Positions 2,550 to 35,782 of a DNA stretch of 38,019 nt are shown piece by piece. The position numbers and the translations under genes were made by a program. This DNA comes from Spirochaetota bacterium. Its GTDB lineage: Bacteria; Spirochaetota; UBA4802; UB4802. Position 1 is the stretch's first letter; each line of letters begins with the position of its first letter. The stretch spans positions 1 to 38,019 of the forward strand of contig JARYLT010000017.1 in NCBI GenBank assembly GCA_029907515.1, written 5' to 3'. The notes under the pieces are model-generated. The model searched no databases. It was not told the DNA's origin and saw nothing but the letters and a program-made list of their open reading frames with translations.

Positions 2550-4027
2550 AACAACATGGATTTGTGTATTTAGTAGGAGCAGGTCCCGGTGATCCGGGAC
2601 TCATTTCGGTTAAGGGGAAAGAGTGCATTGAAAAAGCTGATTGCATTATCTACGACTATTTAGCAAATCCGGTATTGTTGCAACACACCCGCGCCGAGCT
2701 TATCTATGTGGGTAAGCAGGGAAGCCAGCACACGCTGTCACAGGAAGAGATTAACAGACTCATTGTGCAAAAGGCGCGCGAAGGTAAAGTGGTGGTGCGA
2801 TTAAAGGGTGGTGATCCATTTATCTTTGGCAGGGGCGGTGAAGAAGCAGAAGAATTAATAGCAGCAGGTATAGCCTATGCGATAGTTCCCGGTATATCGT
2901 CCTTTTATTCGGCACTGGCTTATGCCGGCATCCCTATAACTCACCGTGATTATGCAGCAAGCTTTGAAGTAATCACCGGACACAGGCGAGCTGATGGTAC
3001 GGAAGATATAACATTGCCCGATTATAGTCCGCAGAAAACGTACACATTTCTTATGGGAATGAAAAACCTGGATACTATCTGCAAGCGATTGATACAGGAA
3101 AAAAATTTCCCGGCGCAAACACCAATCGCAGTGGTTACCTGGGGAACCTTGCCAAAACAAAAGGTGGCAACCGGCACACTGGAAACTATTGCCACAGAAG
3201 TAGAAAAGGCTGGATTAACGCCACCAGCTATTATTGCAATAGGCAGGGTAGTGAGCTTGCGAAACACGTTGCGCTGGTATGACACCTTACCGCTATTTGG
3301 CAAAAAAGTGGTGGTGACGCGCACGCGTGAGCAGGCAAGCGTTCTTTCCAGACGCTTGTATGAGTTAGGTGCTGATGTGGTGGAGTTTCCTACCATAGCA
3401 ATAAAAAAATTGCCGGAACTATCGCCACTCCATAATGCTTTGAACAGATTGCATGATTATGACTGGATTGTATTCACATCACAGAATGCGGTGAGCATTT
3501 TCTTTGAGGAAATGTTTGCATTAGGGTTTGATGCGCGCTCATTGCGGTGTAAGGTGGCAGCAATTGGTCCTGCAACACGTGATGCGTTACGGGCATATGC
3601 AGTAGTTGCCGATCTGGTGCCACAGGAGTATGTGGCCGAAAGCCTGGTGGATGCGTTTAAGGGTGTGGATATTGCAGGCAAAAAAATTCTTGTTCCCTGT
3701 TCGATAAAAGCACGGGCTGCATTGACTCAAGGCCTGCAGCAGGCAGGAGCGCAGGTGGAAAGAGTGCATATCTATGATGCTACCAGGCCTGAAGTAACAC
3801 CTGCAATGCTACAGCAAGTGCAGAATGCTGACATCATTACATTTACCAGTTCATCAACGGTGCGCAATTTTGTGGAGCTTGCAGGAACCACTACAGCAGC
3901 AGTTGCCTGCATAGGTCCAATCACAGCAGACGAGTGCATAAAACAGGGACTATCGCCACATATTGTTGCTAAAGAATATACAATAGAAGGATTGGTGCAG
4001 GCTATACTGGAGTATTTTACAGGATAG
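2546..4027 (+). CDS. cobA/hemD: Fused uroporphyrinogen-III C-methyltransferase / uroporphyrinogen-III synthase
   Basis: The 493-residue bifunctional protein closes hydroxymethylbilane to uroporphyrinogen III and methylates it twice with SAM toward precorrin-2 (siroheme, cobalamin or heme d1 branches). Residues 1 to about 245 are the methyltransferase: VGAGPGDPGLI at 10-20, LKGGDPFIFGRGGEE at 86-100 and PGISS with ITHRDYA near 115-137. Residues from about 250 form the HemD part, with VVVTRTREQ, VFTSQNAV and TFTSSSTVRNF. Such fusions are common in anaerobes. The start overlaps the hemC stop by four bases. The gene carries three copies of the octamer ACTATCGC (at 2879, 3418 and 3949). Confidence 0.97.
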   Translation: MKQHGFVYLVGAGPGDPGLISVKGKECIEKADCIIYDYLANPVLLQHTRAELIYVGKQGSQHTLSQEEINRLIVQKAREGKVVVRLKGGDPFIFGRGGEEAEELIAAGIAYAIVPGISSFYSALAYAGIPITHRDYAASFEVITGHRRADGTEDITLPDYSPQKTYTFLMGMKNLDTICKRLIQEKNFPAQTPIAVVTWGTLPKQKVATGTLETIATEVEKAGLTPPAIIAIGRVVSLRNTLRWYDTLPLFGKKVVVTRTREQASVLSRRLYELGADVVEFPTIAIKKLPELSPLHNALNRLHDYDWIVFTSQNAVSIFFEEMFALGFDARSLRCKVAAIGPATRDALRAYAVVADLVPQEYVAESLVDAFKGVDIAGKKILVPCSIKARAALTQGLQQAGAQVERVHIYDATRPEVTPAMLQQVQNADIITFTSSSTVRNFVELAGTTTAAVACIGPITADECIKQGLSPHIVAKEYTIEGLVQAILEYFTG

Positions 4028-4060
4028 TTTTTTACATTTCATTATTATAGGAGTAATACT

Positions 4061-5053: not shown

Positions 5054-6346
5054 ATGGCATTGCATACATCACGGTCAAAAGAACTTTATGAAGAGGCATG
5101 TAAATATATGCCTGGCGGTGTTAACTCACCAGTGCGTGCATTTCGTTCGGTTGGTGGGCATCCACTGTATTTTAAATTAGGCAAGGGTAGTCATATCATT
5201 GATGAAGATGGTAATGATTTTATTGATTACTGCATGTCATGGGGACCGCTTATTTTAGGGCATGCTGATAATGATGTTGTTAAAGCTATACAGAAAGTAG
5301 CTGAAAATGGCACAAGCTTTGGTGCACCACATGAAGGGGAGATAAGCATCGCGCGAATGGTGGTTGAATCATTCCCTGGTATTGAAAAAGTTCGCTTTGT
5401 TAACTCAGGTACTGAAGCAACCATGAGTGCTATCAGACTTGCACGCGGGTATACTGGCAAAAGCAAGATAATAAAATTTGATGGTTGCTACCATGGCCAT
5501 GCTGATCATCTGCTGGTTGCTGCAGGTTCAGGGCTTGCAACCTTTGGTATGCCCGATTCAGCTGGTGTCACAAAGGATAATGCCAGAGACACCATAGTGG
5601 TGAAATATAATGACATAGATGCCTTGCATCAGGTACTATCGCACAACGATGATGTTGCGTGCTGTATCATGGAGCCGGTATGTTGTAACTACGGGCTTAT
5701 TCTTCCAAAAAAAGATTACCTGAAACAGGTGCGAGAGCTATGTACAAAACATAAAGTTCTTTTGATATTTGATGAGGTTATTACTGGTTTCAGGCTTGCC
5801 CGCGGTGGTGCACAGGAGCGTTTTGCTGTACAGGCTGACATCACAACGCTTGGTAAAATTATTGGCGGGGGACTACCTGTTGGTGCTTATGGGGCATCGT
5901 CTGAAATTATGGCTAAGGTTGCCCCCGATGGGCCTGTGTATCAGGCAGGAACACTTTCAGGTAATCCTATTGCTGTTGCAGCAGGCATTGCAACGTTGCA
6001 AAAATTGGTGCCATCAGCATATCAAAAGCTTGAGGAACTGGGCACATATTTTGAAGAACAGATGAAACCGATTATATCGCGTTTTAAAAATAAAGTGCTG
6101 TTTATGCGCTTTGCTTCAATATTTGCATTGTACTTTACCAATGAAGATATCATTACAAGTGTTGATCAGGTTAAAGAGTGCAATATGCAGCAGTTTGCAC
6201 GCTTTCATAGGTTAATGCTTGAGCGCGGTATATATCTTTCGCCATCGGGTTATGAGGTTGGCTTTTTATCCTTATCGCACTCAAAAGATGATATTGACAA
6301 AACCGTAAAAGCAATTGGTGAATCGTTAGAAATAGTATTACGTTAA
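5054..6346 (+). CDS. hemL: Glutamate-1-semialdehyde 2,1-aminomutase
   Basis: This PLP enzyme converts glutamate-1-semialdehyde to 5-aminolevulinate, the last step of the C5 (tRNA-Glu) pathway. The 430-residue product has MPGGVNSPVRAF near 19-30, the FNSGTEA-like segment VNSGTEATM, a DEVITGFR motif at 240-247, and the PLP lysine K268 in LGKIIGGGLPVGAYG. A purine-rich AAGGGGGGA ribosome-binding site precedes the ATG. Presence of hemL means the C5 route is used, yet glutamyl-tRNA reductase (hemA) is not in this window and must lie elsewhere. The gene ends convergently with the histidine kinase, overlapping it by nine bases. Confidence 0.98.
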   Translation: MALHTSRSKELYEEACKYMPGGVNSPVRAFRSVGGHPLYFKLGKGSHIIDEDGNDFIDYCMSWGPLILGHADNDVVKAIQKVAENGTSFGAPHEGEISIARMVVESFPGIEKVRFVNSGTEATMSAIRLARGYTGKSKIIKFDGCYHGHADHLLVAAGSGLATFGMPDSAGVTKDNARDTIVVKYNDIDALHQVLSHNDDVACCIMEPVCCNYGLILPKKDYLKQVRELCTKHKVLLIFDEVITGFRLARGGAQERFAVQADITTLGKIIGGGLPVGAYGASSEIMAKVAPDGPVYQAGTLSGNPIAVAAGIATLQKLVPSAYQKLEELGTYFEEQMKPIISRFKNKVLFMRFASIFALYFTNEDIITSVDQVKECNMQQFARFHRLMLERGIYLSPSGYEVGFLSLSHSKDDIDKTVKAIGESLEIVLR

Positions 6347-9529: not shown

Positions 9530-10507
9530 TTATACAATGTTTATTCTTTCTTCCTCATTTCGTTTAAAATAATTTCTTATAAGTACAATCATATCGTTTA
9601 TTTCGTTACATTGTCGTATTGATGAAAACAATGTGTGGCCAAATTTTACATTTTTGTGATAATATGCACAAAAACGGTGTGCCCTGCTTTTGTGAAGCTT
9701 CTGCGGAAGCATTACCTGTATATTTTGTAATACGTCTATCCACATTTCTTCAATATTAAGCGATAGCGACAGCGATTGTTGCCGCAATGCAGCTTCACAC
9801 TGTGCAAATATCCATGGTTTCTGTACCGCTGCTCTGCCAATCATGATGCCATCACAATGGGTTTGCTGTAAACGATGTAGTGCTGATGCTGGTTCACTGA
9901 TATCGCCATTGCCAATAACAGGGATGTTTACCTCAGTTACTATCGCCTCAATGATATCCCAGCGAGCTTTGCGTGTAAATCCCCATTTTGCAGCACGTGG
10001 ATGAATAATGACTGCATCCACACCTTCATCCTGCAGCATACTAACAAATTGACGTAAGAATTGAAGGTTAACATCATGAAAGCCAGCACGCATCTTAACA
10101 GTAAGAAGGCCGTAAACGTTTTTTCTGCAAGCGACAATAACTGACTTTGCCAGGTGGAAATTGCAAAGAAGACTGGCACCAGCGCCAGTTTTAAGAATAT
10201 GCGGTGCAGAGCATGCCATGTTTATATTAATGCCATCACATCCGTAATCCTGTAAAATTGTTGCAGCGTTGGCCATAATGTCAGGATTATTCCCAACCAG
10301 CTGGTAAAAAAAAGGATTGTCAAAATCATAGCGCTGTATTAAAGGCTCGTTATGGGGTGCTTTTGCATGTATAGCACCACTTGCAAGCATCTCAGAATAC
10401 AGAACAACGTTATCAGTAAAATTTTTGACAACCTTACGCAGCGCTGGTGTGGTAAGCTCTGCCATGGGCGCTAAATGCAGTGTGTGATGTGTGCCATTAA
10501 TAACCAT
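9530..10507 (-). CDS. dus: tRNA-dihydrouridine synthase
   Basis: The FMN enzyme reduces specific uridines in the tRNA D-loop. The 325-residue product has LAPMAELTTPALRK at the start of the TIM barrel, the catalytic cysteine C99 in NINMACSAPHI, the VKMRAGF segment with K138, IIHPRAAKWGF, IGNGDI and IMIGRAAVQKPWIF, which bind flavin and substrate. NMACS replaces the common NMGCP, but the cysteine is kept. The subclass (A, B or C) cannot be set with certainty. One copy of ACTATCGC lies inside at 9939. Confidence 0.93.
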   Translation of the reverse strand: MVINGTHHTLHLAPMAELTTPALRKVVKNFTDNVVLYSEMLASGAIHAKAPHNEPLIQRYDFDNPFFYQLVGNNPDIMANAATILQDYGCDGININMACSAPHILKTGAGASLLCNFHLAKSVIVACRKNVYGLLTVKMRAGFHDVNLQFLRQFVSMLQDEGVDAVIIHPRAAKWGFTRKARWDIIEAIVTEVNIPVIGNGDISEPASALHRLQQTHCDGIMIGRAAVQKPWIFAQCEAALRQQSLSLSLNIEEMWIDVLQNIQVMLPQKLHKSRAHRFCAYYHKNVKFGHTLFSSIRQCNEINDMIVLIRNYFKRNEEERINIV

Positions 10508-12543: not shown

Positions 12544-13488
12544 ATGGTTCGTAAAAAAGATAACAACTTCCCCAACCCTGAAGGCAAGATCAACGTATTG
12601 AAGCGCTACCTTCATATACTGGCGCTTCTGCAATCACCACCTGGAACCAACGAAACCTGGAATGCAGCAAGACTTGCACAGTTACTATCGCTTGAAGAAG
12701 ATGAAAAAGACATTAGCGACAGCCATGTCCGAAAATACATCAAAGACCATATAGAAAATGAGTTAGGAATAAGTGTTGACCGTACACAGGGCGGACTCAT
12801 AACAGCACTTGCAGAAGACCTTGATCCTGACATGCAGCTTGAAATTGCGCGGGTATATAGCGACTTTGTGGTAAAGGACTCAACGCGTGATATGATATTG
12901 CAAAAATTTATTGCAGCAAATCCTGATCGGGCACTATGGACATTGGCACGCATCTATTTTGCAGCGCTTGAGAAACGCATGATACAATGTAGCTACAAAA
13001 CCAATGAAGGGCAGTTACTAACTGGCTGGAAACTGTGTCCCTGTTATTTTATATTTCGTAACAACAATCTGTATCTTATAGTGTATGATGTAGATATGAA
13101 AAAATACCTTCCGCTTGTTGCTGAGCGCATACAGAATATTGTGGTATGTGATAAAAAACATGATATTAGCTGGGAAGTCCCTGATGTTGATGAGTTATTT
13201 GCAACGTCACTGAGCGCATTTATTGATAACACCAATATAGTGGAAGTTACCATTCGCTATTCACAGGTTGTAAAAACAATCATTGAAAATATTATTGCCT
13301 CGTTACAGCCTGCAATACAAAAGGAGCCCAATAACTGGCACAGAGCAACATTTACCATAAGCGATTATCTTTACCTGTGCAAACAGCTTGTGCTGTATGG
13401 AAGAGAAGTAGAGATAGTAAGCCCACACAAGGTACGACAGGCCATGATACACATGCTTAAGGAAAGCTTAAGCGTGTATGAACAATAA
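12544..13488 (+). CDS. WYL-domain transcriptional regulator
   Basis: The 314-residue protein has an N-terminal winged-helix-like region (about 17-88), a WYL domain (about 135-205) and a C-terminal WCX-like extension (about 232-312, with VEIVSPHKVRQAMIHML). The WYL core is recognisable from RMIQCSYK, GWKLCPCYFIFRNNN and LYLIVYD; the eponymous W-Y-L becomes L-Y-L. WYL regulators sense nucleic acids or nucleotides and often control defence genes (BrxR, CapW). There is no clear Shine-Dalgarno sequence before the ATG, and an AT-rich TATAGT lies about 20 bases upstream, so a very short leader is possible. It precedes the double-AAA+ gene by 168 bases on the same strand and probably controls it. Confidence 0.85.
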   Translation: MVRKKDNNFPNPEGKINVLKRYLHILALLQSPPGTNETWNAARLAQLLSLEEDEKDISDSHVRKYIKDHIENELGISVDRTQGGLITALAEDLDPDMQLEIARVYSDFVVKDSTRDMILQKFIAANPDRALWTLARIYFAALEKRMIQCSYKTNEGQLLTGWKLCPCYFIFRNNNLYLIVYDVDMKKYLPLVAERIQNIVVCDKKHDISWEVPDVDELFATSLSAFIDNTNIVEVTIRYSQVVKTIIENIIASLQPAIQKEPNNWHRATFTISDYLYLCKQLVLYGREVEIVSPHKVRQAMIHMLKESLSVYEQ

Positions 13489-13656
13489 ACATCGCAAGTC
13501 AGTTGCTACCTTTTTTACTATGCTTATAGTATTTTACCAATAAATAACCTGCCATACGTAGTCTAAATGTAGTAGCGATAGTTACTCATAAAGGATCTAT
13601 CTTCAACAACCACGGTGTTAACAAAGTACCCTATATTACCATTACAGGAGGTAGCT

Positions 13657-15894
13657 ATGCCTTTACCAAAATCATATCGACGTCACCATAGACTTTTTCA
13701 CAGAGCACCACAGCCAGGACTGGATGCTTCAATACGTAAAGAGATAATGGAATACACAATGAATTTGCTGCAGCATTTAGAACCAAACGAACGCTTGCTA
13801 ACACTGTGTATGGAATGTTTAAGTATTACAAGCCGTAGAGAGATAGTAGAATCACTGTTTTCTGAAAAAGAAAAGAAAAACCGTAATGAATTTGGTCCAA
13901 ATTATTATGAAGATGCATTAGGGAGCTTGCATAATCCTTCAGACTTAGCTTCTACAATTATGCGGATTGTACTGAGTACTGTGCAAAAGAAAAAATGGGA
14001 TACAGTACGTTACAAGATTTTTATGTTAATAAAAAAAGAATATGAAACTATTGCACAGTATAAACATGAATTAGATGAGCGCTTATCTAAATTGGCGGCA
14101 TTTTTTTCACTCACTGGCATTGATTGCACTATTATGAAGCTATGGGCTATAGCTATTTCAATACCAAACAGCCCGTTAAAAGAACTGTTGTCTGAAGTTA
14201 ATTACAGTGAATTGCAAAAACGCATTGCTATTGCTACAGGATTGCCGCTTGCTGCTGTTAGAATGTCCCTATCAAAAAAAGGGCTTTTATATACCTCTCG
14301 CATCATTGAGTCTATAAATCCTGATGGTTATGAACATATAGTGCTGTCGGATGAAATAATTGAATTTTTGAATGATGTTGCAAGTGAAGATTTGCTTGAG
14401 AAATATGTTAAATTAGATACTGAGCCGACTATACCATTACAGGACTTCAGTGTATCAGATGATGATACATCTATAGTAACGAGTTTATTAAAAAGCAAAC
14501 AACCCTGCAATATCCTTTTATATGGATTCCCGGGAACAGGTAAAACCCAGTTTGCACGGAGCATAGCTACGCATAGTGGCCGTAAAGTCTTTATGCTTGT
14601 CTATAGCAGTGGACGCGAAAGTACCAGGCATGAAAGCATAAGTTCGCGTCTTATGGCTGTAACCATTGCTATGAAGATAGCTGAAAAAAATGATGCAATT
14701 CTGATTATAGATGAAGCAGATGAGCTTCTTAATACACAATCGTTTTTTCCACTTTTTTCTTTTGATTCAGGCAATAAAGGCAGGATTAATGATTTGCTTG
14801 ATACCAGTAATGCGCAGTGTATCTGGATAACTAATTCTATATATGGAATATCATCGTCAACATTGCGCCGTTTCAACTACAGCATAACGTTTAAGCACTT
14901 CACTTCTGCACAGCGTATTGTCCTATGGCAAAGAATACTTAAACACAGTGAGCTTGAAAAATATTTCACCAGTGAGATAATCCATGAACTATCGCATAAA
15001 TATGCCGTTAATGCTGCGGGAATTGCAAGTAGCATCAAAGCAGTTGAAACAATGTTTACACACAAGACTATATCGGAAGACAAAATAGTTCCCGTGATTG
15101 AAAAGCTATTACAACGTCACCTTAAGCTTTCTGGCAACATGAATATAGAAAAGCTTAATCCATTAACCCCACAGTATGATCTGACATTCTGCAATACTGA
15201 TACCAATCTTGATGGAGTTGTAAAGGCTGTCAGGCGATATTATTCTGGGCAATGCAATGTTACAAACATTTCTATTCTGCTATGGGGACCATCAGGTACA
15301 GGAAAGACTGAGTTTGTCAAATATCTTGCAAAGGAGGTAGGAAAAGAGCTTATCATAAAGCGTGCATCAGATTTAATAGACAAGTATGTGGGGGAAACCG
15401 AAAAACTTATGCGCCAGGCCTTTGAAGAAGCGCACGAAAAAAATGCACTGCTATTTATTGATGAGGCTGACACATTTTTTGCAAGCCGCGAGCATGCACA
15501 GCGTTCCTGGGAAATTTCTTTTGTCAATGAGATGTTAGTTCAAATGGAAAATTTTACAGGGGTTTTTATTTGTTCAACTAATATGCTTGAGCTTTTAGAC
15601 AGTGCTGTTATGCGTCGTTTTTCATTTAAAATTAAGTTTAACCCTGTAAAAGCTGACATGCGTGTTAAAATGTATGAGCGTTATTTTGTAGGCGATAGCA
15701 ACCAGCTGTCTTTGCCGCAAAAGAAAAGAATTGCAGGCCTTGAAGGGTTAACGCCAGGACATGTCAAAGCCGTGCATCAGAAAATCGTGATGATGGATGA
15801 GTTAAACAACCACGATGTCATCATAGATGCCCTTGAAAAAGAAGTACAGTATATGATGAAAAATAAAAACTCCAAAACAGGCTTTTCTATATAA
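13657..15894 (+). CDS. Double AAA+ domain ATPase (COG0464/Cdc48-like architecture)
   Basis: The 745-residue protein starts at the ATG at 13657, which has a perfect AGGAGGT site; the frame opens earlier at a GTG (13615) with no such site. About 270 N-terminal helical residues match nothing I recognise. The first AAA+ module has Walker A GFPGTGKT (290-297), Walker B IIDEAD (about 350-355) and an LRRF sensor or finger segment. The second has GPSGTGKT (544-551), pore-loop-like KYVGETEKL, Walker B FIDEAD (600-605) and RRF near 653-655. Both sites look competent. Tandem AAA+ rings unfold or remodel proteins. No protease or transmembrane domain is present. It is followed after 28 bases by the HTH-coiled-coil gene, so the two form an operon. 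Confidence 0.88.
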   Translation: MPLPKSYRRHHRLFHRAPQPGLDASIRKEIMEYTMNLLQHLEPNERLLTLCMECLSITSRREIVESLFSEKEKKNRNEFGPNYYEDALGSLHNPSDLASTIMRIVLSTVQKKKWDTVRYKIFMLIKKEYETIAQYKHELDERLSKLAAFFSLTGIDCTIMKLWAIAISIPNSPLKELLSEVNYSELQKRIAIATGLPLAAVRMSLSKKGLLYTSRIIESINPDGYEHIVLSDEIIEFLNDVASEDLLEKYVKLDTEPTIPLQDFSVSDDDTSIVTSLLKSKQPCNILLYGFPGTGKTQFARSIATHSGRKVFMLVYSSGRESTRHESISSRLMAVTIAMKIAEKNDAILIIDEADELLNTQSFFPLFSFDSGNKGRINDLLDTSNAQCIWITNSIYGISSSTLRRFNYSITFKHFTSAQRIVLWQRILKHSELEKYFTSEIIHELSHKYAVNAAGIASSIKAVETMFTHKTISEDKIVPVIEKLLQRHLKLSGNMNIEKLNPLTPQYDLTFCNTDTNLDGVVKAVRRYYSGQCNVTNISILLWGPSGTGKTEFVKYLAKEVGKELIIKRASDLIDKYVGETEKLMRQAFEEAHEKNALLFIDEADTFFASREHAQRSWEISFVNEMLVQMENFTGVFICSTNMLELLDSAVMRRFSFKIKFNPVKADMRVKMYERYFVGDSNQLSLPQKKRIAGLEGLTPGHVKAVHQKIVMMDELNNHDVIIDALEKEVQYMMKNKNSKTGFSI

Positions 15895-16754: not shown

Positions 16755-17216
16755 ATGATAAAATACATAATCCCGCTATTACTTGTTGTATGTGCTGGCT
16801 GCACACAGTATGTTGATGTGGGTGATGTTGAGTTTTCAGTACAGGTGGTTTTCCAGCAAAATGTACCTGTATTTGCCACTACCTATACCATAACCCTATT
16901 AAACACCAGTATAAATAAAGTTGTAAAAAACTACACGGCAACAGTGGCGATAGTTACTGAAGATAAGCATACTCTTAAGCAATTAACAGTTGCTGCTGAT
17001 AAACTTTTGCCAAAGCAAGTACAACAGATAACCATTACACAGAATGAATCTGAAGAAGCAATTAAACCACTATTCAATGAATTGGAGATAGATATTAATG
17101 AAGTAATAAAGCAGCAGGAAGCAGCTTTGGTATTGCCCGAGGGTATGGTAAAAGTGGAAAAAGCACACTATGAAACCGTTGATATCGTAACATATTTACA
17201 AGAGGTTGGACAATGA
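16755..17216 (+). CDS. Putative lipoprotein
   Basis: The 153-residue protein has a signal sequence with a lipobox-like VCAGC, predicting lipidation at C16 and export to the cell envelope. The remainder alternates beta strands (FSVQVVF, YTITLLNTS, TATVAIVT) like an immunoglobulin-type or FxLYD-like domain, with no recognised family. A GCGAGGT site precedes the ATG. The stop overlaps the next start by four bases (ATGA), so the two products are coupled and probably work together. Confidence 0.65.
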   Translation: MIKYIIPLLLVVCAGCTQYVDVGDVEFSVQVVFQQNVPVFATTYTITLLNTSINKVVKNYTATVAIVTEDKHTLKQLTVAADKLLPKQVQQITITQNESEEAIKPLFNELEIDINEVIKQQEAALVLPEGMVKVEKAHYETVDIVTYLQEVGQ

Positions 17217-17647: not shown

Positions 17648-18586
17648 TTACGACAACAATCCCTGAATAATCAAATCCACCGCTTCATCTTCATCAAGAC
17701 CTCGTGCCATAAGCGTTTGCAATTGCTTATCGTCAACACTGCCAATGGCTGCTTCATGGGTAACATGCGCTTTGGGATGATACACCTCAACAATGGGAAT
17801 GGCTTTTGCAACACCATTATCCTGAATGATTTCTTTGCAATCAACATGTCCCCGTGCAAATGCTGCATGTGCGGTTAATGTATTGTACACAGTAGCTTTT
17901 GCATTATCTCTAACGGCAATGCGTGTGGTTAGTACACCAACGGCACCCTGGCCTTTCAGATGTCCTGTTTCCCGTATGGTGATATCATCATTATCAATAC
18001 CGTTTACCTTGGCATTCATCTCTAGAAGGCTTCCTTCGTAGCAGGTTGTCTCATAATTAATATCAATAATACCAGCTTTTCCCCGTAAAAGCTCAAAATC
18101 AGTTTTAAACGTGGCATTCTTTTCAACAGTAACTATCGCATGCGGAACTACAGTAATTAAACCTCCTGGTGCATGGACATGGCGCTCTACATATGAGTAA
18201 TACGCTCCCTCTTTAATAACAATATTTGCCTGCATTTTGTGTGTAATATTTTTTGCATTGGGGAATGTGCAGTGTGCAAGTATAGAAACTTTTGCATGCT
18301 CTTCTATGGTAACATCCATGATAATTTCTTGAAGGCCATCTTCAGGAAGCATGCCAAAACAAAGATGCACTGGCTTTTGGATAATGCTACCTGCTAACAC
18401 CTTCATGGTAACAGTAACACCGTTTGGAGTTTCATGTGGCTCAACAACAAGCCCTGGCACTAAATGTGCCCCAACCACCATATTGCCGTTTATAACCAGA
18501 TGTGCAATATCCGGGTCATTTAAGGCAGCGTCAGTAAGCCCCATTGTTTTATATAATGTTTTTGCAATTTCGCGCTTATCATCCAT
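17648..18586 (-). CDS. sufB: SufB/SufD-family Fe-S cluster scaffold (minimal SmsB-like form)
   Basis: The 312-residue product is a short SufBD-type beta-helix protein, lacking the long N-terminal region of classical SufB (about 470 residues). Diagnostic features include the right-handed repeat region, YSYVERHVH, and the C-terminal HVDCKEIIQDNGVAKA..PIVEVYHPKAHVTHEAAIGSVDD part, where the VTHEAAIG motif provides the histidine and glutamate of the SufBD core. It is coupled to sufC by TAATG. Such two-gene SufCB pairs (also called SMS) are typical of anaerobic bacteria and archaea and build Fe-S clusters with SufC ATPase. No sufS, sufU or sufD is present here. Confidence 0.9.
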   Translation of the reverse strand: MDDKREIAKTLYKTMGLTDAALNDPDIAHLVINGNMVVGAHLVPGLVVEPHETPNGVTVTMKVLAGSIIQKPVHLCFGMLPEDGLQEIIMDVTIEEHAKVSILAHCTFPNAKNITHKMQANIVIKEGAYYSYVERHVHAPGGLITVVPHAIVTVEKNATFKTDFELLRGKAGIIDINYETTCYEGSLLEMNAKVNGIDNDDITIRETGHLKGQGAVGVLTTRIAVRDNAKATVYNTLTAHAAFARGHVDCKEIIQDNGVAKAIPIVEVYHPKAHVTHEAAIGSVDDKQLQTLMARGLDEDEAVDLIIQGLLS

Positions 18587-19317: not shown

Positions 19318-19778
19318 TGTAGTTGTTCTCCTATCAAAATAAAATTTATAACACTGTCGTCCTGAATCCCGAATTTTTTAAACATAGCAATCCATTATGC
19401 TGAGCGTCATACTGTAATTCTTCCATTGGATACGAACAAGAAATCGCCAGTTGCATCATGAATGACCACTTGCTATTTGAGTAACGTAAATATAAAAAGA
19501 ACGTATAAAACTTTCATCATGGTAATTATAGATTGTATCATCGTCAAGAGAGAATTTAAAAAAACTCAATAATTGGTATTGAAAGAATGAAAAACCAAAA
19601 AAATGGTTATTTTTCAATTTAGGGCTATATTTTCAGTGAACTGGTGATGGAACTATCGCCAATCTATGCATAATTTGTATAGGTACTGGTAATAATTTTG
19701 TATATTTCAGCAAAAGTACTTGATTAATTTAATTATATTTACTTTTGTGTAACAAGATGTCCTCCAACCTTATGATGA
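19318..19778. other. Divergent intergenic region between sufC and the decarboxylase gene
   Basis: These 461 bases contain no convincing gene. On the minus side a TTATAA at 19346-19351 could be the sufC -10 box, just before its ribosome-binding site. The segment from about 19358 (GTCCTGAATCCC) to 19415 resembles a decayed copy of the CCTGAAT-type palindromes seen at 11544. One intergenic copy of ACTATCGC is at 19652. I see no FeS-responsive operator that I can name. Confidence 0.4.
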
Positions 19779-21500
19779 GTGGTTACCACAATGAGATTGG
19801 CTGAGCCCACAATAGATCATACCCCTGGCAAGATACCCACCGATTTAGAGCATCTACGCAAGCTATTCATCATGCCCGATTCACCTGATAAGTTTATGCA
19901 ATTTGGGTATGAGCTTCTTGACCTTATTCATTCATTTTTTAAGGAAAAGGGTGGTATTCATAGTGAGATATCATTGCCTGAGCTGGCATGCCTGTTTAAC
20001 AATATTGATATTCCTCGTGATCCAAAGCTTTTAAAAGATATACTCCTTGAAATAAAACAAAAGGTTATCAAGCACTCCGTAAAGGTTGGCAATCCCTATT
20101 ATATAGGGCACATGACAAGTGCTATTCCATATTTTATGATTTTGCTTGAGATGATCATTGCTGCACTCAATCAAAATCAGGTAAAGATAGAAACAGCAAA
20201 AGCGTCAACATTTGTAGAACGCGAATTTATTTCCTGGATACACAGGCTTATTTTTCAAAAGCCAGCGTCGTTTTATAAACGAAATATTCAGAATCACAGA
20301 ATTGCACTGGGAAATGTAACGCTTGATGGAACACTGGCAAACCTTACAGCAATGCTGGTGGCACGCAATAAGGCATTTCCTGCTGATGAACACTTTCCCG
20401 GTATACGCAAAGCAGGTGTGGCCGAAGCATTCAGGTATTATAATATACATAGAGCAGTGTATATTGTATCGCAGCGTGGACATTATTCAATTGATAAGGT
20501 TGCCCGTATCACCGGTATTGGTGATAATAACGTAATCAAAATACCGGTGGATAGTAATAATAAAATAGATATCAACGCTTTGCGACGTGAGTTAAAAGCA
20601 ATAGCTGAGTACAACAGCACCCATGCTGATACAATTAAAGTTATTGCTTTGATTGGCATTGCCGGCACAACTGAGACAGGCAATATTGATGACCTGTACA
20701 CCTTACGAAAAATTGCAGATGAATACAATATTTTCTTCCATGTTGATGCAGCGTGGGGTGGGTCGGTGCTTCTGGTTAACAAATACCGCGATTTATTCAA
20801 AGGGATAGAAAAGGCTGATTCAGTTACGTTTGATGCTCATAAACTGTTGTATTCACCATTGTCCATGGGACTGATTTTGTTTAAAAATCCCTATGACCTT
20901 ACCAACATCATGCATACATCCAATTACATTATTCGCCCTGATTCAGTTGATCAGGGAAGGTTTACTGTGGAAGGTTCGCGCCCATTTTCTTGCTTAAAGC
21001 CCTGGGTAACGCTGAAGATATTTGGCACATCAGGTTTTGAGATTTTATTTGATCATGCCTTTATGCTGACTGATACATTAAAGGATCTTTTAATTAAGCA
21101 TGAAAACTTTGAGTTACTCAATACTCCGGAATTATTTATAACCAATTACCGCTTTGTTCCTGAGAGTGTACAGGCAAAAATTGAACATATTTACCAGCGA
21201 TTGCAAAATGCCAGCCCACAGGATGCTATACGACTTAAAAAACGGTTAACAAAAATCAATGACATTCTAAACGAAATGACTATAGAACTTCACCGTGCAA
21301 TCCGTCAGGAAGATAACAGCTTTGTTTCACGAACCATGCTGGAATCAACACGCTATCGCGACCAGCGAATTGTAGTTCTCAGGGCTATCACCATAAATCC
21401 TTTAACAACTCCGGCAATCTTGCAAGAAATAATTGACGAACAGAATAAGCTTGGTTTAAAGATATATAATGATTTCAAAAACCGGTTATCACGTGTATAG
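19779..21500 (+). CDS. panP: PLP-dependent group II decarboxylase, PanP-type aspartate 1-decarboxylase
   Basis: The 573-residue enzyme (start GTG 19779; ATG 19791 is also possible, and neither has a strong ribosome-binding site) belongs to the glutamate/aspartate decarboxylase fold. The PLP lysine is K355 in TFDAHKLLYSP; D323 in HVDAAWGG and H235 in RGHYS bind the cofactor. Segments such as TLDGTLANLTAMLVARN, GVAEAFRYY and GIAGTTETGNIDD resemble the PanP family, which makes beta-alanine from aspartate for pantothenate. Glutamate or tyrosine as substrate cannot be excluded. The 3' end overlaps the next frame by about 30 bases. Confidence 0.8.
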   Translation: MVTTMRLAEPTIDHTPGKIPTDLEHLRKLFIMPDSPDKFMQFGYELLDLIHSFFKEKGGIHSEISLPELACLFNNIDIPRDPKLLKDILLEIKQKVIKHSVKVGNPYYIGHMTSAIPYFMILLEMIIAALNQNQVKIETAKASTFVEREFISWIHRLIFQKPASFYKRNIQNHRIALGNVTLDGTLANLTAMLVARNKAFPADEHFPGIRKAGVAEAFRYYNIHRAVYIVSQRGHYSIDKVARITGIGDNNVIKIPVDSNNKIDINALRRELKAIAEYNSTHADTIKVIALIGIAGTTETGNIDDLYTLRKIADEYNIFFHVDAAWGGSVLLVNKYRDLFKGIEKADSVTFDAHKLLYSPLSMGLILFKNPYDLTNIMHTSNYIIRPDSVDQGRFTVEGSRPFSCLKPWVTLKIFGTSGFEILFDHAFMLTDTLKDLLIKHENFELLNTPELFITNYRFVPESVQAKIEHIYQRLQNASPQDAIRLKKRLTKINDILNEMTIELHRAIRQEDNSFVSRTMLESTRYRDQRIVVLRAITINPLTTPAILQEIIDEQNKLGLKIYNDFKNRLSRV

Positions 21501-25777: not shown

Positions 25778-26188
25778 TTAGTTAATGGTTATCTTGCGGG
25801 GTTTCACTGACTCATGTTTGGTCAGCTTAATGGTTAAAATACCATTGTTCATTGTTGCTTCAACCCTGTCGGGGTCCACATAGTATGGCAACTTGATGGA
25901 TTTCTTGTAGCTGCCAAACTCACGTTCTTTGCGCAAATACGGTTTGTCAGCATAATCTTCCTTACGGTTCATTTCGATAGTTAATGTATTATCAGCAAGT
26001 TGTACATTGACATCGCTGGATGAAACTCCCGGAGCTATCGCCCGTATAACGATATCATCATCTTTTTCATAGACATTGATATAAGGGAATTCCACGCGTC
26101 GACGGGTGGTGGATACTTCATCAAAGAAGCGGTCCACCATGTCCCTGAGTGTTAAAACGTCATCAAGAAGATCATATGTTGTGAACAT
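25778..26188 (-). CDS. Small heat shock protein (Hsp20), second gene
   Basis: The 136-residue product has a short N-terminal arm and an alpha-crystallin domain (about 30-136) with NVYEKDDDIVIRAIAPGV, the REFGSYKKSIKLP loop and NNGILTIKL. It lacks the C-terminal IxI extension beyond KITIN, so oligomerisation may depend on its partners. AGGAGG precedes the ATG. It lies 13 bases after the first hsp20 gene. The three proteins are clearly different from each other, so this is not a recent duplication. Confidence 0.93.
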   Translation of the reverse strand: MFTTYDLLDDVLTLRDMVDRFFDEVSTTRRRVEFPYINVYEKDDDIVIRAIAPGVSSSDVNVQLADNTLTIEMNRKEDYADKPYLRKEREFGSYKKSIKLPYYVDPDRVEATMNNGILTIKLTKHESVKPRKITIN

Positions 26189-26654: not shown

Positions 26655-26687
26655 AGTGCACCTCCTATGAATATAAGGTTGTTATTG

Positions 26688-26714
26688 TTAGCACTCTATA
26701 CTAATGAGTGCTAA
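26688..26714 (-). promoter_or_regulatory. CIRCE operator (HrcA-binding site)
   Basis: TTAGCACTC (26688-26696), a nine-base spacer and GAGTGCTAA (26706-26714) match the CIRCE consensus with no mismatch. It sits between the likely promoter and the first hsp20 start, the standard position for repression by HrcA. Confidence 0.97.
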
Positions 26715-26725
26715 TTTCTGATAAT

Positions 26726-26754
26726 AAATTAATAACAGATTTTAAAATCGTCAA
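26726..26754 (-). promoter_or_regulatory. Putative sigma-70-type promoter of the hsp20 operon
   Basis: On the minus strand TTGACG (26749-26754) is followed after 17 bases by TAATTT (26726-26731). The start point would fall just upstream of the CIRCE element, which agrees with the usual geometry. Confidence 0.5.
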
Positions 26755-26918
26755 CTGGGGCAGGAGAAAAATTTTTTAAAAAGATTATTTTTTTTACCAT
26801 ATTTAATTTTTTAATTGCAATATTTAATTCAATTTGTTGATTTTATATATAAGGTTCCCATTTTACAAAAATAGAATATTTCAATATTACAAATAAAATG
26901 ATTAAGGAGGATTGGTAT

Positions 26919-27287: not shown

Positions 27288-27304
27288 GTTATGTAGGACG
27301 CGTA

Positions 27305-27748
27305 TTACGCTTTTACTGCTAATTCCTCTGAATCCACATCTATGGATATGCCGCTCATTGCCTTGACGGGGCATGCCAGTTTGCATAAACCGCATGCTAC
27401 ACAACGGTCGGGATGAAATTCCACCATCATGGTTTCACGGTTTATAACAAGGGCATCGGTGCGGCACACAGCGGTGCAGGCGCCACAGTGCACACAGCGA
27501 TCTTCGTCACGTTGAATTTTATCGGCAAGGATGTCTACAACAACTTCCTCATCTTTAAGGTAGGTTATGCAGGCATCCAGGTCCTGTTTTTCGCCTGATA
27601 GCTGCAATATAAGCCTTCCTTCCTGCTTGGGTAATATTTTGGCTTCAAGCACGTTGAAGATTACATTAAAATCTTTTGCAATACGATATATGATTGGTTT
27701 GTACATAATGTGCTGATTAAAAATTAACAGTACATTTCGTGATTCCAT
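27305..27748 (-). CDS. NIL-domain / 2[4Fe-4S] ferredoxin of the homocysteine module
   Basis: The 147-residue protein has an NIL domain (about 1-75), as found in methionine-related transport ATPases, followed by two 4Fe-4S motifs: C85, C88, C91, C95 in CVHCGACTAVC and C116, C119, C122, C126 in CVACGLCKLAC. The same domain pair occurs in methanogens (MA1822 of Methanosarcina), where it assists the DUF39 protein in making homocysteine from aspartate semialdehyde and sulfide. Here it is the last gene of the three-gene cluster with UPF0280 and DUF39. It probably supplies electrons. Confidence 0.92.
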   Translation of the reverse strand: MESRNVLLIFNQHIMYKPIIYRIAKDFNVIFNVLEAKILPKQEGRLILQLSGEKQDLDACITYLKDEEVVVDILADKIQRDEDRCVHCGACTAVCRTDALVINRETMMVEFHPDRCVACGLCKLACPVKAMSGISIDVDSEELAVKA

Positions 27749-27760
27749 GGTTAACCTCGT

Positions 27761-28483
27761 TTATTCAATTTCAGTAAGTTCAATGCTACCTTTGACTGCC
27801 ATTGTATCCCAGTATATCACCAGTGCGCCTTTTACTCCAGATATACTGGTTGCAAACGATACAGCTTGTGTACAGTCACTATCGCTCTGTACCATGTTGC
27901 AGGTGGCGGTGGCTACAGCATCGGCCAGTGCGGCTGTATCAGCAATGATTGTGGCAATATCGGCTTTGCCAAAGCTAAATGAGCGGCCAAACCTGCCCGA
28001 TGATGAGCAGACACCGCAGGGCGTCATATCAGGGGTCAGAGCAATACCTAAATGTTTTGAAAACGCTGAGCGCCCTGCAAACACGCTAATTTTAGCTGGT
28101 TCACGCACATGCGCCCATATATCGCCGCCGTTTTCCACAATGACCTCAGAGCTATAGTGCAGCAAGTCTTCTCCCACCATCTGGGCGATAGCGCCCGCGA
28201 CTGCTGCCATGGGACCAACCCCTGCCAGCAACGAAGCTTTGCACATGCGTTGCACAACCTCAGGCGCTAATGCCTCAGGCTCAAGCGGGGTCAGAGCATG
28301 AAGAAACTGTGGATGTTTTTCACAATAGCGCTCAATATCTTCCCGAAGTCTTTTGACAAGAACTATCGCCCTATCATATACGTTGGAATGAGCGCATATA
28401 TAAAGATTGGTTGTTTCAACACGTACCTCAAAGGTGGTGAACCGTGTGGCAAGCTTTGTTCGGTAGGGCAATGTGTTACTCAT
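27761..28483 (-). CDS. UPF0280 (COG2122) protein, sulfide-assimilation partner
   Basis: The protein of about 240 residues (starting MSNTLPYR; an ATG four codons earlier at 28495 is possible) has the ApbE-like UPF0280 signatures: GVGPMAAVAGAIAQ, VENGGDIW and CGVCSSSGRFGRSFSFGKAD. A COG2122 protein in Methanosarcina (MA1715) is required for efficient use of sulfide in sulfur-amino-acid synthesis. The preferred start overlaps the DUF39 stop by eight bases (ATGAGTAA), implying coupling. Two ACTATCGC copies lie inside, at 27878 and 28362. Confidence 0.9.
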   Translation of the reverse strand: MSNTLPYRTKLATRFTTFEVRVETTNLYICAHSNVYDRAIVLVKRLREDIERYCEKHPQFLHALTPLEPEALAPEVVQRMCKASLLAGVGPMAAVAGAIAQMVGEDLLHYSSEVIVENGGDIWAHVREPAKISVFAGRSAFSKHLGIALTPDMTPCGVCSSSGRFGRSFSFGKADIATIIADTAALADAVATATCNMVQSDSDCTQAVSFATSISGVKGALVIYWDTMAVKGSIELTEIE

Positions 28484-29666: not shown

Positions 29667-29932
29667 GGTGGATTTCCTTATGTGTTATAATGTGTGGGAT
29701 ACCATTATGGAGTCAGAGCTTGAAAACTGGCAAGTAAAAATTTATGATTGAAAAGCTGTGGAGCTTGCATGTTCAATAAAAATTAAAAAAGGCTTGAAAA
29801 AAAGAAAATATAGTAAAAATTTTATATTTAACGACATAGAAATTGCAGATATATGAAAATTTGTGTTTATGTACAAATGGTGAAACTTAACAAGATGAAT
29901 TCAATTATGATATATTGTAAAAGATCTTTGTG

Positions 29933-32473: not shown

Positions 32474-32516
32474 GTTAAACTGGATTAACAAGATTTATAA
32501 GATTAACAGGATATTC

Positions 32517-32624
32517 AGGATGAACAAGATGAACAGGATAAATAGGATGAACAAGATGAACAGGATAAATAGGATGAACAGGATGAACAGGATAAATAGG
32601 ATGAACAGGATGAACATGATGATT
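32517..32624. repeat. 27-bp tandem repeat array, four copies
   Basis: The unit consists of three 9-mers, AGGATGAAC, AAGATGAAC and AGGATAAAT. Copies start at 32517, 32544, 32571 and 32598. The first two are identical, the third has one change (A to G in the second 9-mer), and the fourth decays at its end. The flanks, 32481-32516 and 32630-32706, hold further scattered GATTAACAGGAT and GGATATTCAGGAT words, so the whole 233-base gap between hsdR and the GxxExxY gene is built from one motif. No spacers exist, so it is not CRISPR. Confidence 0.95.
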
Positions 32625-32706
32625 TGATTAACAGTATATTCAGGGTTAACAGGATTAATAGTATAACAGATAACATGATTAACAGGATTAAGAGGATATT
32701 CAGGAT

Positions 32707-33132
32707 ATGAAATATGAAAGTTTAACAGAACAGATTTTGGGATGCGCTTTTGAGGTTATTAATGAGCTTGGTTCAGGATTTCTTGAGTCTGTTTACGAAA
32801 AAGCAATGCTAATTGTATTAAAAGAGAAAGGGTTGTCTGTTGTGAATCAGTTTCCTGTGCATGTTTATTTCAGAAATAATATGGTTGGAGTGTTTTACGC
32901 AGACTTATTTGTAGAAAATAAAGTAATTGTTGAACTGAAAGCCGTAAAGTCAATTTTACCTGAACATAAAGCACAGGTTATTAATTATTTAAAAGGTACT
33001 GGCATTGAAGTCGGATTATTATTAAACTTTGGCAGTCAGAAGCTCGAATTTAACCGTCTTTATTTGCCTGAAAGTACAAATCCTGATAATTCTGATAATC
33101 TTGTAAATCCTGATAATCCTGTTAAAGTATGA
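32707..33132 (+). CDS. GxxExxY protein (PD-(D/E)XK-like fold)
   Basis: The 141-residue protein has the name-giving motif GSGFLESVYEKAM (22-34), then YADLFVENKVIVELKAVKSI with D86, E95 and K97 as a nuclease-like triad, and the LLNFG segment near 104-108. The family's function is unknown; members are frequent in defence and repeat-rich regions. The last 20 residues (PDNSDNLVNPDNPV) are encoded by the reverse-complement form of the GGATNAACAGGAT repeat that also forms the upstream array, so the tail is repeat-derived. The ribosome-binding region (CAGGAT) is itself repeat sequence. The hsdMS start follows 13 bases later. Confidence 0.88.
   Translation: MKYESLTEQILGCAFEVINELGSGFLESVYEKAMLIVLKEKGLSVVNQFPVHVYFRNNMVGVFYADLFVENKVIVELKAVKSILPEHKAQVINYLKGTGIEVGLLLNFGSQKLEFNRLYLPESTNPDNSDNLVNPDNPVKV
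33079..33126 (-). repeat. Repeat-derived 3' end of the GxxExxY gene
   Basis: The stretch consists of AATCCTGATAAT, TCTGATAATC and AATCCTGATAATCCTGTT words, the complement of the ATTAACAGGAT motif in the array at 32517-32624. It encodes the Asn-Pro-Asp-rich C-terminal tail. Confidence 0.8.
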
Positions 33133-33145
33133 GGGGAAGGCTATA

Positions 33146-35782
33146 ATGCTTGATAATGAAACCAAACGAAGAATCGATACTGCCCGCGATATCTTAGTCG
33201 GCAAAGTGCCCGACCCAAAGAGCCAGGTGGAGCAGATTACCATTGCTCTTGTTTATAAGTTCATGGATGACATGGACATGGAAGCGGTTGAACTTGGAGG
33301 CAAACCAAGCTTTTTTACCGGCGATTATGAGCGATACGCATGGCACAGGATTTTTGACCCCCGTATCGGCGGCTATGAGATGCTGAATCTCTATGCAGAT
33401 GCCATCACACGGATGAGCCAGAACCCAAACCTTCCCGAGCTATTCCGCAATATCTTCAAAAATGCTTATCTTCCATACCGAGATCCTGAAACTCTTAAGC
33501 TTTTTCTAAAAACCATCAATGAATTCACCTACGACCATTCCGAACGCCTGGGCGATGCCTTTGAGTATCTGCTTTCAGTGCTGGGCAGTCAGGGCGATGC
33601 CGGGCAATTCCGCACCCCGCGTCATATCATTGATTTTATGGTGGCGATAGTTAGCCCTCAAAAAAACGAACTCATCCTTGACCCTGCCTGTGGTACTGCC
33701 GGATTTTTGATTTCGGCATATAAACATATCATGCGCGAAAACACCTCCGAAAAATACCGCTCCAGCAATGGCAATGGTAGAGGGGACCTGCTTACTACGG
33801 AGGAACGAAAAAAACTGCTTACCAATTTCAAAGGCTATGACATTTCGCCCGACATGGTGCGGCTTTCGCTTGTCAATATGTATCTGCACGGCTTTGTAAA
33901 CCCTCAAATATACGAATACGACACCCTGACGAGCGAAGACCGATGGAACGAATATGCCGACGTCATCCTTGCCAATCCGCCCTTTATGACCCCGAAGGGA
34001 GGCATCAAGCCGCACAAACGATTCAGCGTGCAGAGCAACCGTAGCGAGGTACTTTTTGTCGACTACATCGTCGAGCATCTCACTCCCACCGGAAGGGCTG
34101 CGGTGATTGTCCCCGAAGGGATCATCTTTCAGAGTGCCAATGCCTATAAGCAGCTTCGCAGGATGCTGGTTGAAAATTATCTGTATGCGGTGGTCTCACT
34201 ACCCGCTGGAGTGTTTCAGCCCTACTCAGGTGTAAAGACTTCAATCCTGCTTATGGATAAGGTGCTTTCTAAAAAGACCGATAGCATTCTGTTTGTAAAG
34301 ATTGAAAACGATGGATTTGACCTTGGAGCTCAGCGCCGCCCCATTGACAGAAACGACCTGCCCGATGCTCTGCAGGTGATCCGTGAATATATTGACAAGG
34401 TAAGAAATGGCAAAGCAGATGAATTTAATGCCGACGAAAAACCCTGCTCCGCCCTGCTGGTGAAGAAAGAAAAACTTGCCGAAAACGGCGAATACAACCT
34501 CACCAGCGATAGATACCGCGTAGTAGAAAAACGCAAACACCAGAAATGGCCCATGGTGAGACTGGGGGAAATTGCAGAATATATAAATGGTTTCCCATTC
34601 AAACCAACAGATTGGAAGTCTTCAGGGAAAAAGATTATTAGAATCCAAAATCTTACAGGAACAAGTGATACTTATAATTACACTGACAAAAAAGATATTC
34701 CTAATAAATATTTGATAAAGCGAGGTGATCTTCTTATTTCATGGTCAGCAACAATTGGATTTTATTTTTGGAACGATGAGGAAGCTTACCTAAATCAGCA
34801 TATTTTTAAAGTTGTTCCTTCTGAAAAGGTTTTGAAAGAATATCTCTATGTCTTACGCTTTAAAATAATAGAAGAAATTACTGGAAATGTTCATGGTAAT
34901 ACAATGAAGCATATTACAAAAGATCGTTTTGATAATATTATAATCCCCCTTCCACCGCTTGAAGTACAGCAAGAGATAGTGGCAGAGATAGAGGGCTACC
35001 AGAAGATCATCGACGGCTGCAGGCAGGTGATAGACGCCTGGAAGCCCGATGTAGAATGGTATTTGGATGAAGCGCTACAGGAATATAATCAGAAAATTGA
35101 ACAGGATAAACAGGATAGACAGGATAAAAAAGATAAAGATTCAGTAAATCGAGATTATCCTATTCATCCTGAACATCCTGTTCAAACTCTTTCTGCATGG
35201 CCAATGGTGAAGCTGGGGGAGGTGTGTGAGAAAATTACAAAAGGTTCATCTCCAAATTGGCAAGGAATTAATTATACTGATCATCCTGGAATTCTTTTTA
35301 TTACTAGTGAAAACATTGGATTTGGTGAATTATTATTAAATAATAAAAAATATGTAGAACATAAGTTTAATGAAATAGAAAAAAAATCAATCCTAAAAAA
35401 GGGGGATGTATTAACTAACATTGTTGGAGCATCAATTGGAAGGACATGTTTATTTTATCTTGAGGAAATTTCAAATATTAATCAAGCAGTTTGTTTAATA
35501 AGATGCAAGAAAAATTTTTTAAATAATTATTATCTTATGTATTTGTTAAATTCTACATTCTACTTAAAAATATTACATTCAAACAAAGTTGAAAATGTTA
35601 GAGCAAATTTGAGTCTTAGCTTTTTTGAAAATTTGGGCATCCCACTCCCTCCCCTTGAAGTCCAGAACCGTATTGTCGATAAAATCGAATCCGAGCGGAA
35701 GGTAATCAACAACCTGCGGGAGATGGTGAAAACCTATGAGGGGAAAATTAAGCGGGTGATTGACAGGGTGTGGGGGGAGTGA
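33146..35782 (+). CDS. hsdM-hsdS: Fused type I methyltransferase-specificity subunit (HsdM-HsdS)
   Basis: This 878-residue protein joins both modification functions. Residues 1 to about 460 are HsdM, an N6-adenine methyltransferase with the SAM motif LDPACGTAGFL (178-188) and the catalytic NPPF (277-280). Residues about 468-615 and 685-850 are two HsdS target-recognition domains, each opening with WPMV.LGE and closing with PLPPLEVQ. The linker (about 648-680) is encoded by a GGATAAACAGGAT-type repeat and its inverted copy, giving an Asp-Lys-Gln run. The TRDs look more AT-rich than the conserved HsdM parts, pointing to exchange of specificity modules. A GAGGGGAAGG site precedes the ATG. Confidence 0.93.
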   Translation: MLDNETKRRIDTARDILVGKVPDPKSQVEQITIALVYKFMDDMDMEAVELGGKPSFFTGDYERYAWHRIFDPRIGGYEMLNLYADAITRMSQNPNLPELFRNIFKNAYLPYRDPETLKLFLKTINEFTYDHSERLGDAFEYLLSVLGSQGDAGQFRTPRHIIDFMVAIVSPQKNELILDPACGTAGFLISAYKHIMRENTSEKYRSSNGNGRGDLLTTEERKKLLTNFKGYDISPDMVRLSLVNMYLHGFVNPQIYEYDTLTSEDRWNEYADVILANPPFMTPKGGIKPHKRFSVQSNRSEVLFVDYIVEHLTPTGRAAVIVPEGIIFQSANAYKQLRRMLVENYLYAVVSLPAGVFQPYSGVKTSILLMDKVLSKKTDSILFVKIENDGFDLGAQRRPIDRNDLPDALQVIREYIDKVRNGKADEFNADEKPCSALLVKKEKLAENGEYNLTSDRYRVVEKRKHQKWPMVRLGEIAEYINGFPFKPTDWKSSGKKIIRIQNLTGTSDTYNYTDKKDIPNKYLIKRGDLLISWSATIGFYFWNDEEAYLNQHIFKVVPSEKVLKEYLYVLRFKIIEEITGNVHGNTMKHITKDRFDNIIIPLPPLEVQQEIVAEIEGYQKIIDGCRQVIDAWKPDVEWYLDEALQEYNQKIEQDKQDRQDKKDKDSVNRDYPIHPEHPVQTLSAWPMVKLGEVCEKITKGSSPNWQGINYTDHPGILFITSENIGFGELLLNNKKYVEHKFNEIEKKSILKKGDVLTNIVGASIGRTCLFYLEEISNINQAVCLIRCKKNFLNNYYLMYLLNSTFYLKILHSNKVENVRANLSLSFFENLGIPLPPLEVQNRIVDKIESERKVINNLREMVKTYEGKIKRVIDRVWGE
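35099..35182. repeat. Inverted repeat inside hsdS coding the inter-TRD linker
   Basis: GAACAGGATAAACAGGAT and following words (35099-35128) are the reverse complement, with mismatches, of the arm at 35152-35182 that ends ATCCTGAACATCCTGTTC. The loop is about 23 bases. The same motif makes the array upstream of the GxxExxY gene. The frame stays open through it and encodes a hydrophilic linker. Confidence 0.8.

Follow-up and report, generated by a model that had tools for sequence, protein, structure and literature searches.

A genome-wide octamer confined to one genus of uncultured Spirochaetia, with features of a candidate DNA uptake sequence

The window analysed here is contig C88, bases 1-38019 (38,019 bases), from a 3.49-Mb assembly (3,490,099 bases in 193 contigs) of an uncultured member of the Spirochaetia, hereafter G000. 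Judged by one of its proteins, the closest named relatives are metagenome-assembled genomes of Spirochaetia, UBA2205 being the top one with 90% identity. The octamer GCGATAGT occurs 14 times in the window and ranks first by z-score among its octamers. Dinucleotide shuffles give an expectation of 0.46 copies (maximum 3; 0/100 shuffles reach 14) and a second-order Markov model gives 0.34. The first-pass annotation of this DNA had reported the overrepresentation and placed every copy at its correct coordinate, but its chance figure of 1.2 was too high, so that the excess exceeds what it implied. Its division into twelve genic and two intergenic copies also held on re-reading: six copies are read as Ala-Ile-Val (AIV), five as x-Leu-Ser and one as Ser-Asp-Ser (SDS). 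A sister word, GCGATAGC, has five copies in the window. Two of them fall within 19,660-27,877, a stretch described earlier as empty, which is indeed free of GCGATAGT but not free of words. The copies are listed below, with the open reading frame (ORF) that contains them.

2879..2886, plus strand: GCGATAGT, ORF 2546-4027, AIV frame
3418..3425, minus strand: GCGATAGT, ORF 2546-4027, antisense, ELS frame
3949..3956, minus strand: GCGATAGT, ORF 2546-4027, antisense, GLS frame
5635..5642, minus strand: GCGATAGT, ORF 5054-6346, antisense, VLS frame
9760..9767, plus strand: GCGATAGC, second word
9939..9946, minus strand: GCGATAGT, ORF 9530-10507, AIV frame
12684..12691, minus strand: GCGATAGT, ORF 12544-13488, antisense, LLS frame
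13575..13582, plus strand: GCGATAGT, intergenic
14988..14995, minus strand: GCGATAGT, ORF 13615-15894, antisense, ELS frame
15692..15699, plus strand: GCGATAGC, second word
16947..16954, plus strand: GCGATAGT, ORF 16755-17216, AIV frame
18132..18139, minus strand: GCGATAGT, ORF 17648-18586, AIV frame
19652..19659, minus strand: GCGATAGT, intergenic
21352..21359, minus strand: GCGATAGC, second word, within 19,660-27,877
26034..26041, minus strand: GCGATAGC, second word, followed by TCC, within 19,660-27,877
27878..27885, minus strand: GCGATAGT, ORF 27761-28495, SDS frame
28185..28192, plus strand: GCGATAGC, second word
28362..28369, minus strand: GCGATAGT, ORF 27761-28495, AIV frame
33644..33651, plus strand: GCGATAGT, ORF 33146-35782 (type I restriction-modification M/S gene), AIV frame

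The excess is upheld by a genome-wide count, a check that the first-pass annotation had proposed together with a look at conservation in relatives. G000 carries 1151 copies of GCGATAGT (579 forward and 572 reverse; 330 per Mb), against 83 (43 + 40) of the reversed word, which serves as control. At 36% GC a genome of this size would hold about 77 copies by chance, calculated by hand, which puts the word about 15-fold over base composition. G000 belongs to a genus set of five genomes, G000-G004, while G005 is the lone genome of a sister genus in the same family. In a survey of 59 genomes, G000 included, the five genus members hold 1151, 1023, 1118, 1327 and 651 copies of GCGATAGT (control 83-125); G005 has 30, versus 46 of the reversed word, and the other 53 genomes show no enrichment. 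When GCGATAGT and GCGATAGC are summed as GCGATAGY, the five genomes, of 3.0-3.6 Mb, become alike (1522, 1294, 1420, 1600 and 1466) despite T:C ratios that run from 1327:273 to 651:815. Among 392 Spirochaetota genomes, an even draw from a larger group, GCGATAGY is enriched in 5/5 genus members, at ratios of 6.8 to 11 (1294 versus 189 in G001, for example), and in 0/387 others; the top ratio outside the genus, in a table judged by eye, is 103:32 in G072.

Chance as the cause is ruled out by the window shuffles and by the genome count with its reversed-word control. A phylum-wide or order-wide property is ruled out by the limitation of the enrichment to the genus in these surveys, and contamination of the G000 bin by the presence of the enriched word in five separate genomes. 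Small samples (24-80 kb) of G005, G006, G007, G037, G048 and G052 contain no word as strongly enriched, except for AGAGGATGC in G052, which is from another family. There, the copies lie largely in a local repeat (L164, 15 copies, several between 10865 and 12816), and the units containing AGAGGATGC are probably part of a repeat-rich protein gene.

The surroundings of the word were read in sampled stretches. The G000 sample comprises 795,517 of the 3,490,099 bases, on 42 contigs picked by number, with long contigs and the loci for ComEC and secretion added; five of its small contigs read as N, and its 671 ORFs were called by a length criterion only. The other genus members are represented by stretches of about 125-457 kb each, not by whole genomes, and one G004 contig is without a readable base. 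In the G000 sample, the 276 copies of GCGATAGT divide into 102 sense, 122 antisense and 52 outside ORFs or across their edges, with a density of 0.315 per kb in ORFs versus 0.621 per kb elsewhere. All five frames that avoid an in-frame stop are used, the only unused placement being the one that puts TAG in frame.

Over 555 sampled copies from the five genomes, the octamer forms the core of a longer, asymmetric motif, T-G-G-GCGATAGT-T-A/C-C-T-G, that is, about TGGGCGATAGTT(A/C)CTG. The A/T content peaks at -8/-7 (0.81 and 0.79) and at +16/+17 (0.83 and 0.80), against a background of 0.62; both peaks lie some 12 bases from the ATA at the centre. The flank consensus of G000 (T+8, A/C+9, C+10, T+11, G+12, A+15, A+16) is seen in each of the five frames as well as in intergenic copies, with two exceptions at background level: A+15 in one antisense frame (0.35) and A+16 in another (0.33). 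Since the flanks recur across frames and in intergenic DNA, the sequence evidence indicates that the DNA itself, not an encoded peptide, is what is recognised. Among single-base neighbours of the octamer in G000, changes at positions 1, 2, 3 and 8 are enriched 1.3- to 14-fold, while those at positions 4-7 are about at expectation with the exception of C at position 5 (10 versus 3.3 expected). The 14-base motif was also sought in viral contigs, where the matches listed amount to one per contig, and a search of G000 for a spaced pair of words gave no match.

Pairwise alignments of the sampled stretches of G000 with those of its relatives, in which a G000 word can count in more than one pair, contain 118 contiguous GCGATAGY of G000. 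Opposite 58% of them stands the identical 8-mer, versus 16% for background 8-mers matched in GC, so that conservation in relatives is borne out as well. GCGATAGT is identical in G003 at 11/13 sites (background 0.39), in G002 at 9/15 (0.17), in G004 at 21/48 (0.14) and in G001 at 7/15 (0.09). As a control, the other 8-mers that fit GCNATHGT or ACNATHGC are about at background in the same genomes (11/27, 7/44, 17/146 and 1/20, respectively). No gap lies opposite any of the 118 contiguous words, which excludes insertion of a small element as their origin, and the distances are mostly 0-1; a count that tolerates gaps finds at least one, in the G001 pair. Point mutation is almost the only source of new copies, and existing ones are kept across species.

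All five genus genomes also carry GCGATAGC, usually with TC after it (271-815 copies; control 56-74). In G000-G003 it is outnumbered by GCGATAGT (371 versus 1151 in G000), and in G004 it has the majority (815 versus 651; the 457-kb sample of G004 has 79 GCGATAGT). The flanks vary with the dialect, GCGATAGT-T-A/C-C versus GCGATAGC-T-C. Site by site, eight words with T in G000 have C in G004 and none the reverse (0/14 C words of G000 have T in G004); the corresponding differences between G003 and G004 are 4 and 0. In each comparison of G000 with G001, G002 and G003, one T word of G000 reads C in the relative and none the reverse, so G000 is T-leaning too. One species, G004, has by all appearances moved site by site to GCGATAGC, which amounts to a dialect. 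Because G001, the most distant from G000 by identity (72%), is T-majority, the simplest place for the T-to-C shift is the G004 branch, a placement drawn from identities and not from a tree.

We propose that GCGATAGT forms the core of an independent system like that of DNA uptake sequences, spread over the genome and specific to the genus, and give this reading a probability of roughly 0.52. In its anatomy and its evolution, the word resembles the DNA uptake sequences (DUS) and the uptake signal sequences (USS): the motif is long and asymmetric, bears A/T tracts and has no polarity, and it shows point-mutational origin, conservation, dialects and restriction to a single clade. According to the model, a cell-surface or periplasmic binding component of a DNA import route would prefer a motif of about 25 bp, made of an A/T tract, GGCGATAGTT(A/C)CTG and an A tract. 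DNA of kin would be imported by preference and then recombined into the chromosome. Each import cycle would favour alleles that match the motif, and copies would build up by point mutation, to as many as about one per 2-3 kb. If the preference of the binder changed, the genome would follow site by site, giving rise to a dialect such as GCGATAGC in one species. That uptake selects the word and that a specific receptor exists is what we infer. The route may lack a pilus-retraction motor, ComEC being fed, for example, by the pseudopilus of the type II secretion system or by some other binder at the surface.

Sequence-specific uptake has been described for two proteobacterial families (PMC5031613, PMC7811141). 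Like the present word, the USS of Pasteurellaceae have a short asymmetric core found in both orientations genome-wide, a point-mutational origin and conserved AT-rich segments outside the core, and occur there as two clade-specific types (PMC1626085). Their 8-mers are overrepresented 16X (Haemophilus ducreyi) to 63X (PMC1626085). The present word belongs to another phylum, is unrelated in sequence and has A/T segments on both sides, in contrast to the 3' side only in the USS as described. The DUS of Neisseriaceae likewise have species dialects differing at a few bases and a conserved core in a variable word, and Simonsiella muelleri offers a precedent for two dialects in one genome (PMC3630211). 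Unlike for the DUS, a type IV pilus motor was not found and no ComP-like receptor was identified in our comparison, which covers five genomes. A literature search on uptake sequences in spirochaetes returned no paper on such a word, judging by title and abstract, and the ten papers listed out of 639 that contain one of the word strings look unrelated.

A number of observations weigh against an uptake system, the machinery foremost. ComEC was found by family search in 4/5 genus genomes; G004 has a C-terminal piece at a locus edge, where the contig apparently ends to judge from the cut flank, which makes 5/5. The G000 protein matches the core Competence domain only, which corresponds to the usual 'C profile' of Spirochaetes (PMC6299819). 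DprA is present in 5/5 genus genomes. The presence of the two genes speaks for uptake, but both are widespread (ComEC in 55/58 genomes and DprA in 13/13) and therefore do not explain the genus specificity. No PilT family member passes the cut-off in any of 13 genomes. One T2SSE ATPase passes it in each of 11/13 genomes, the exceptions being G001 and G005, and in the genus this gene lies within a type II secretion cluster. The prepilin genes belong to this cluster too, which encodes a secretin with a GspD N0 domain in G000 and, in G004, GspK and a PilM-type domain protein. Four prepilin N-termini each were detected in G000, G002, G003 and G004, and none in G001 or G005. G001 has neither a T2SSE ATPase over the cut-off nor a prepilin N-terminus, even though it is enriched in the words. 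With completeness at 93% for G001 and 71% for G005, the assemblies may have a gap here. Among the pseudopilins of type II secretion is a short basic one (isoelectric point 9.0-9.3) in G002, G003 and G004. The search pattern found no counterpart in relatives from the order, so none can be put forward as the receptor. ComEA-type helix-hairpin-helix domains give weak matches in the genus, apart from one in G004 that exceeds the cut-off. There is thus no evidence of the canonical uptake machine driven by a pilus, nor is any of the machinery genes specific to the genus; this is the main weakness of the proposal. Because the machine of the DUS and USS families was sought and not found, we do not assign the word to either.

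Other points on the same side concern the word itself. Its density is about one-third of that of the 10-base USS of Haemophilus influenzae (330 versus 1014 per Mb, PMC7811141). Perfect copies are outnumbered by one-off copies in the G000 sample (276:635), whereas in genomes with Hin-type USS the perfect ones prevail (PMC1626085); the ratio itself, 0.43 versus 0.05 for the reversed word, speaks in favour of uptake. Within ORFs of the G000 sample the word positions show no lean towards gene ends, unlike in Pasteurellaceae (PMC2346458). Outward-facing inverted pairs at 60 bp or less are few, 7 among 514 CGATAGY sites, with 5/7 inside ORFs. As to a lower frequency in newly acquired DNA, the word is enriched 4.6-fold in the lowest-GC fifth of ORFs and 6.7- to 9.3-fold in the other fifths, but long word-free stretches hold metabolic genes and housekeeping genes (ATP synthase), so absence from foreign DNA does not follow. 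Two stretches of G000 free of both words are 2493-21887 of contig C116 (19.4 kb), where a gene group includes fatty-acid oxidation enzymes, and 3668-20000 of contig C104 (L124; at least 16.3 kb), with polysaccharide, transposase and ATP synthase genes.

The main rival is a word akin to the cyanobacterial HIP1 (highly iterated palindrome 1; GCGATCGC), for which a methyltransferase and methylation-directed repair would act as a mutational ratchet with no role in uptake. A pilus motor would then be unnecessary. Both words are genome-wide octamers with the first five bases, GCGAT, in common, and the enrichment of one-off words at the outer positions 1, 2, 3 and 8 resembles the pattern of HIP1 (PMC4390886). 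Alternate HIPs replace HIP1, together with their methyltransferases, in some relatives, which could mimic a dialect (PMC4390886). HIP1 and its extensions are palindromic (PMC4390886), whereas the present word is non-palindromic and extends asymmetrically over about 25 bp with A/T tracts; moreover, its dialect-dependent flanks are not predicted by a short methylase target. In its strict sense the HIP1 label of the first-pass annotation fails, and a HIP-like origin is retained as a candidate that we regard as unlikely.

Less likely still is a binding site for a genus-specific, non-polar protein of chromosome organisation or repair, nucleoid-associated or similar. A DNA-bending protein would suit the length and asymmetry of the motif and the position of its A/T tracts, about 12 bases from the centre. 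The doubled density outside ORFs and the Poisson-like spacing (71 bins of 10 kb, mean 3.37, variance 3.58) fit such a protein too. Against it, hundreds of coding sites that fix short peptides call for either a drive or a large advantage at each site, and the switch of majority in G004 is harder to account for in the absence of a self-reinforcing process such as uptake.

Chi and KOPS (FtsK-orienting polar sequences) are similar to GCGATAGT in length and copy number. A polar word of this kind, serving recombination or chromosome segregation, would agree with a non-palindromic octamer of about 1000 copies per genome, but is very improbable, since strand polarity is absent and Chi- and KOPS-like readings are thereby removed. 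The two strands of G000 carry nearly equal numbers (579 versus 572), and the 30 sampled contigs that have 4 copies or more do not differ in orientation (chi-square 17.0, 30 degrees of freedom). In 240 kb of one contig of G001, all 12 bins of which have a negative GC skew, GCGATAGY occurs 46 times on the plus and 51 times on the minus strand. Over the listed stretches of at least 15 kb with a skew of at least 0.03, the G-rich strand has 306 and the C-rich strand 314. The Chi/KOPS suggestion made at first pass is thus contradicted. Lastly, a bias in codons or codon pairs (Ala-Ile-Val, Leu-Ser) or a recurring protein motif, suggested by 12/14 window copies being genic and 11 of these lying in two frames, has a negligible chance of producing the word, as synonymous shuffling within the 671 ORFs leaves a mean of 22.1 copies (maximum 34 in 60 shuffles) versus 224 observed, about 10 times as many, all five stop-free frames are used and DNA outside ORFs is the richer in the word. 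The view that this is not a protein-family motif therefore stands, and neither outcome named beforehand as damaging, a count near the codon-aware expectation or an explanation by codon-pair bias, was obtained.

The uptake sequence, also among the candidates named at first pass, fits best in view of the degenerate A/T-flanked motif, the point-mutational origin and the dialects, with the PilT-type motor as the missing part.

Other features were seen in passing. In the window, type I restriction-modification genes occupy 29930-35782 and encode an HsdR-like protein (847 amino acids) and a fused M and S protein (878 amino acids, two specificity domains); an AIPR-family protein is encoded beyond them at 36828-37742. 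At 23740-25343, a papain-family cysteine peptidase adjoins a chagasin-family (I42) peptidase inhibitor, and the two are likely a pair. A second dispersed word, GCTCTGACCC, is found on the minus strand at 28033-28042 and 28288-28297, often followed by C and A/T-rich DNA. The genus samples scanned hold 75 copies of it at 28 loci of four genomes, window included, often several per stretch; as a guess from the sequence, they might be ends of a small mobile element. A CRISPR-like array on G000 contig C3 (L086, from 57) has 18 copies of a repeat with GCCCCGCTAATAGGGGATTGCGAC, the first six spaced 76-78 bases. In UBA2205 (L001, from 13755), a repeat with GTTTGAGCTTCCAATAGTGGGAT has 16 core copies, some 65-66 bases apart, and is possibly CRISPR-like.

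Why sequence-specific uptake evolved is debated. We suggest, tentatively and at somewhat less than even odds, that the genus represents a third independent origin of such uptake, one that does without a type IV pilus retraction motor and in which one species is half-way through a change of dialect. If true, this would suggest that another type of uptake machine exists. A case from a distant phylum, with a word-free sister genus and a species in mid-dialect, would also provide a test of drive by a biased receptor. Should the word turn out to be HIP-like, it would extend such words beyond cyanobacteria to a non-palindromic case, of no less value for the unsolved question of how HIP1 arose.

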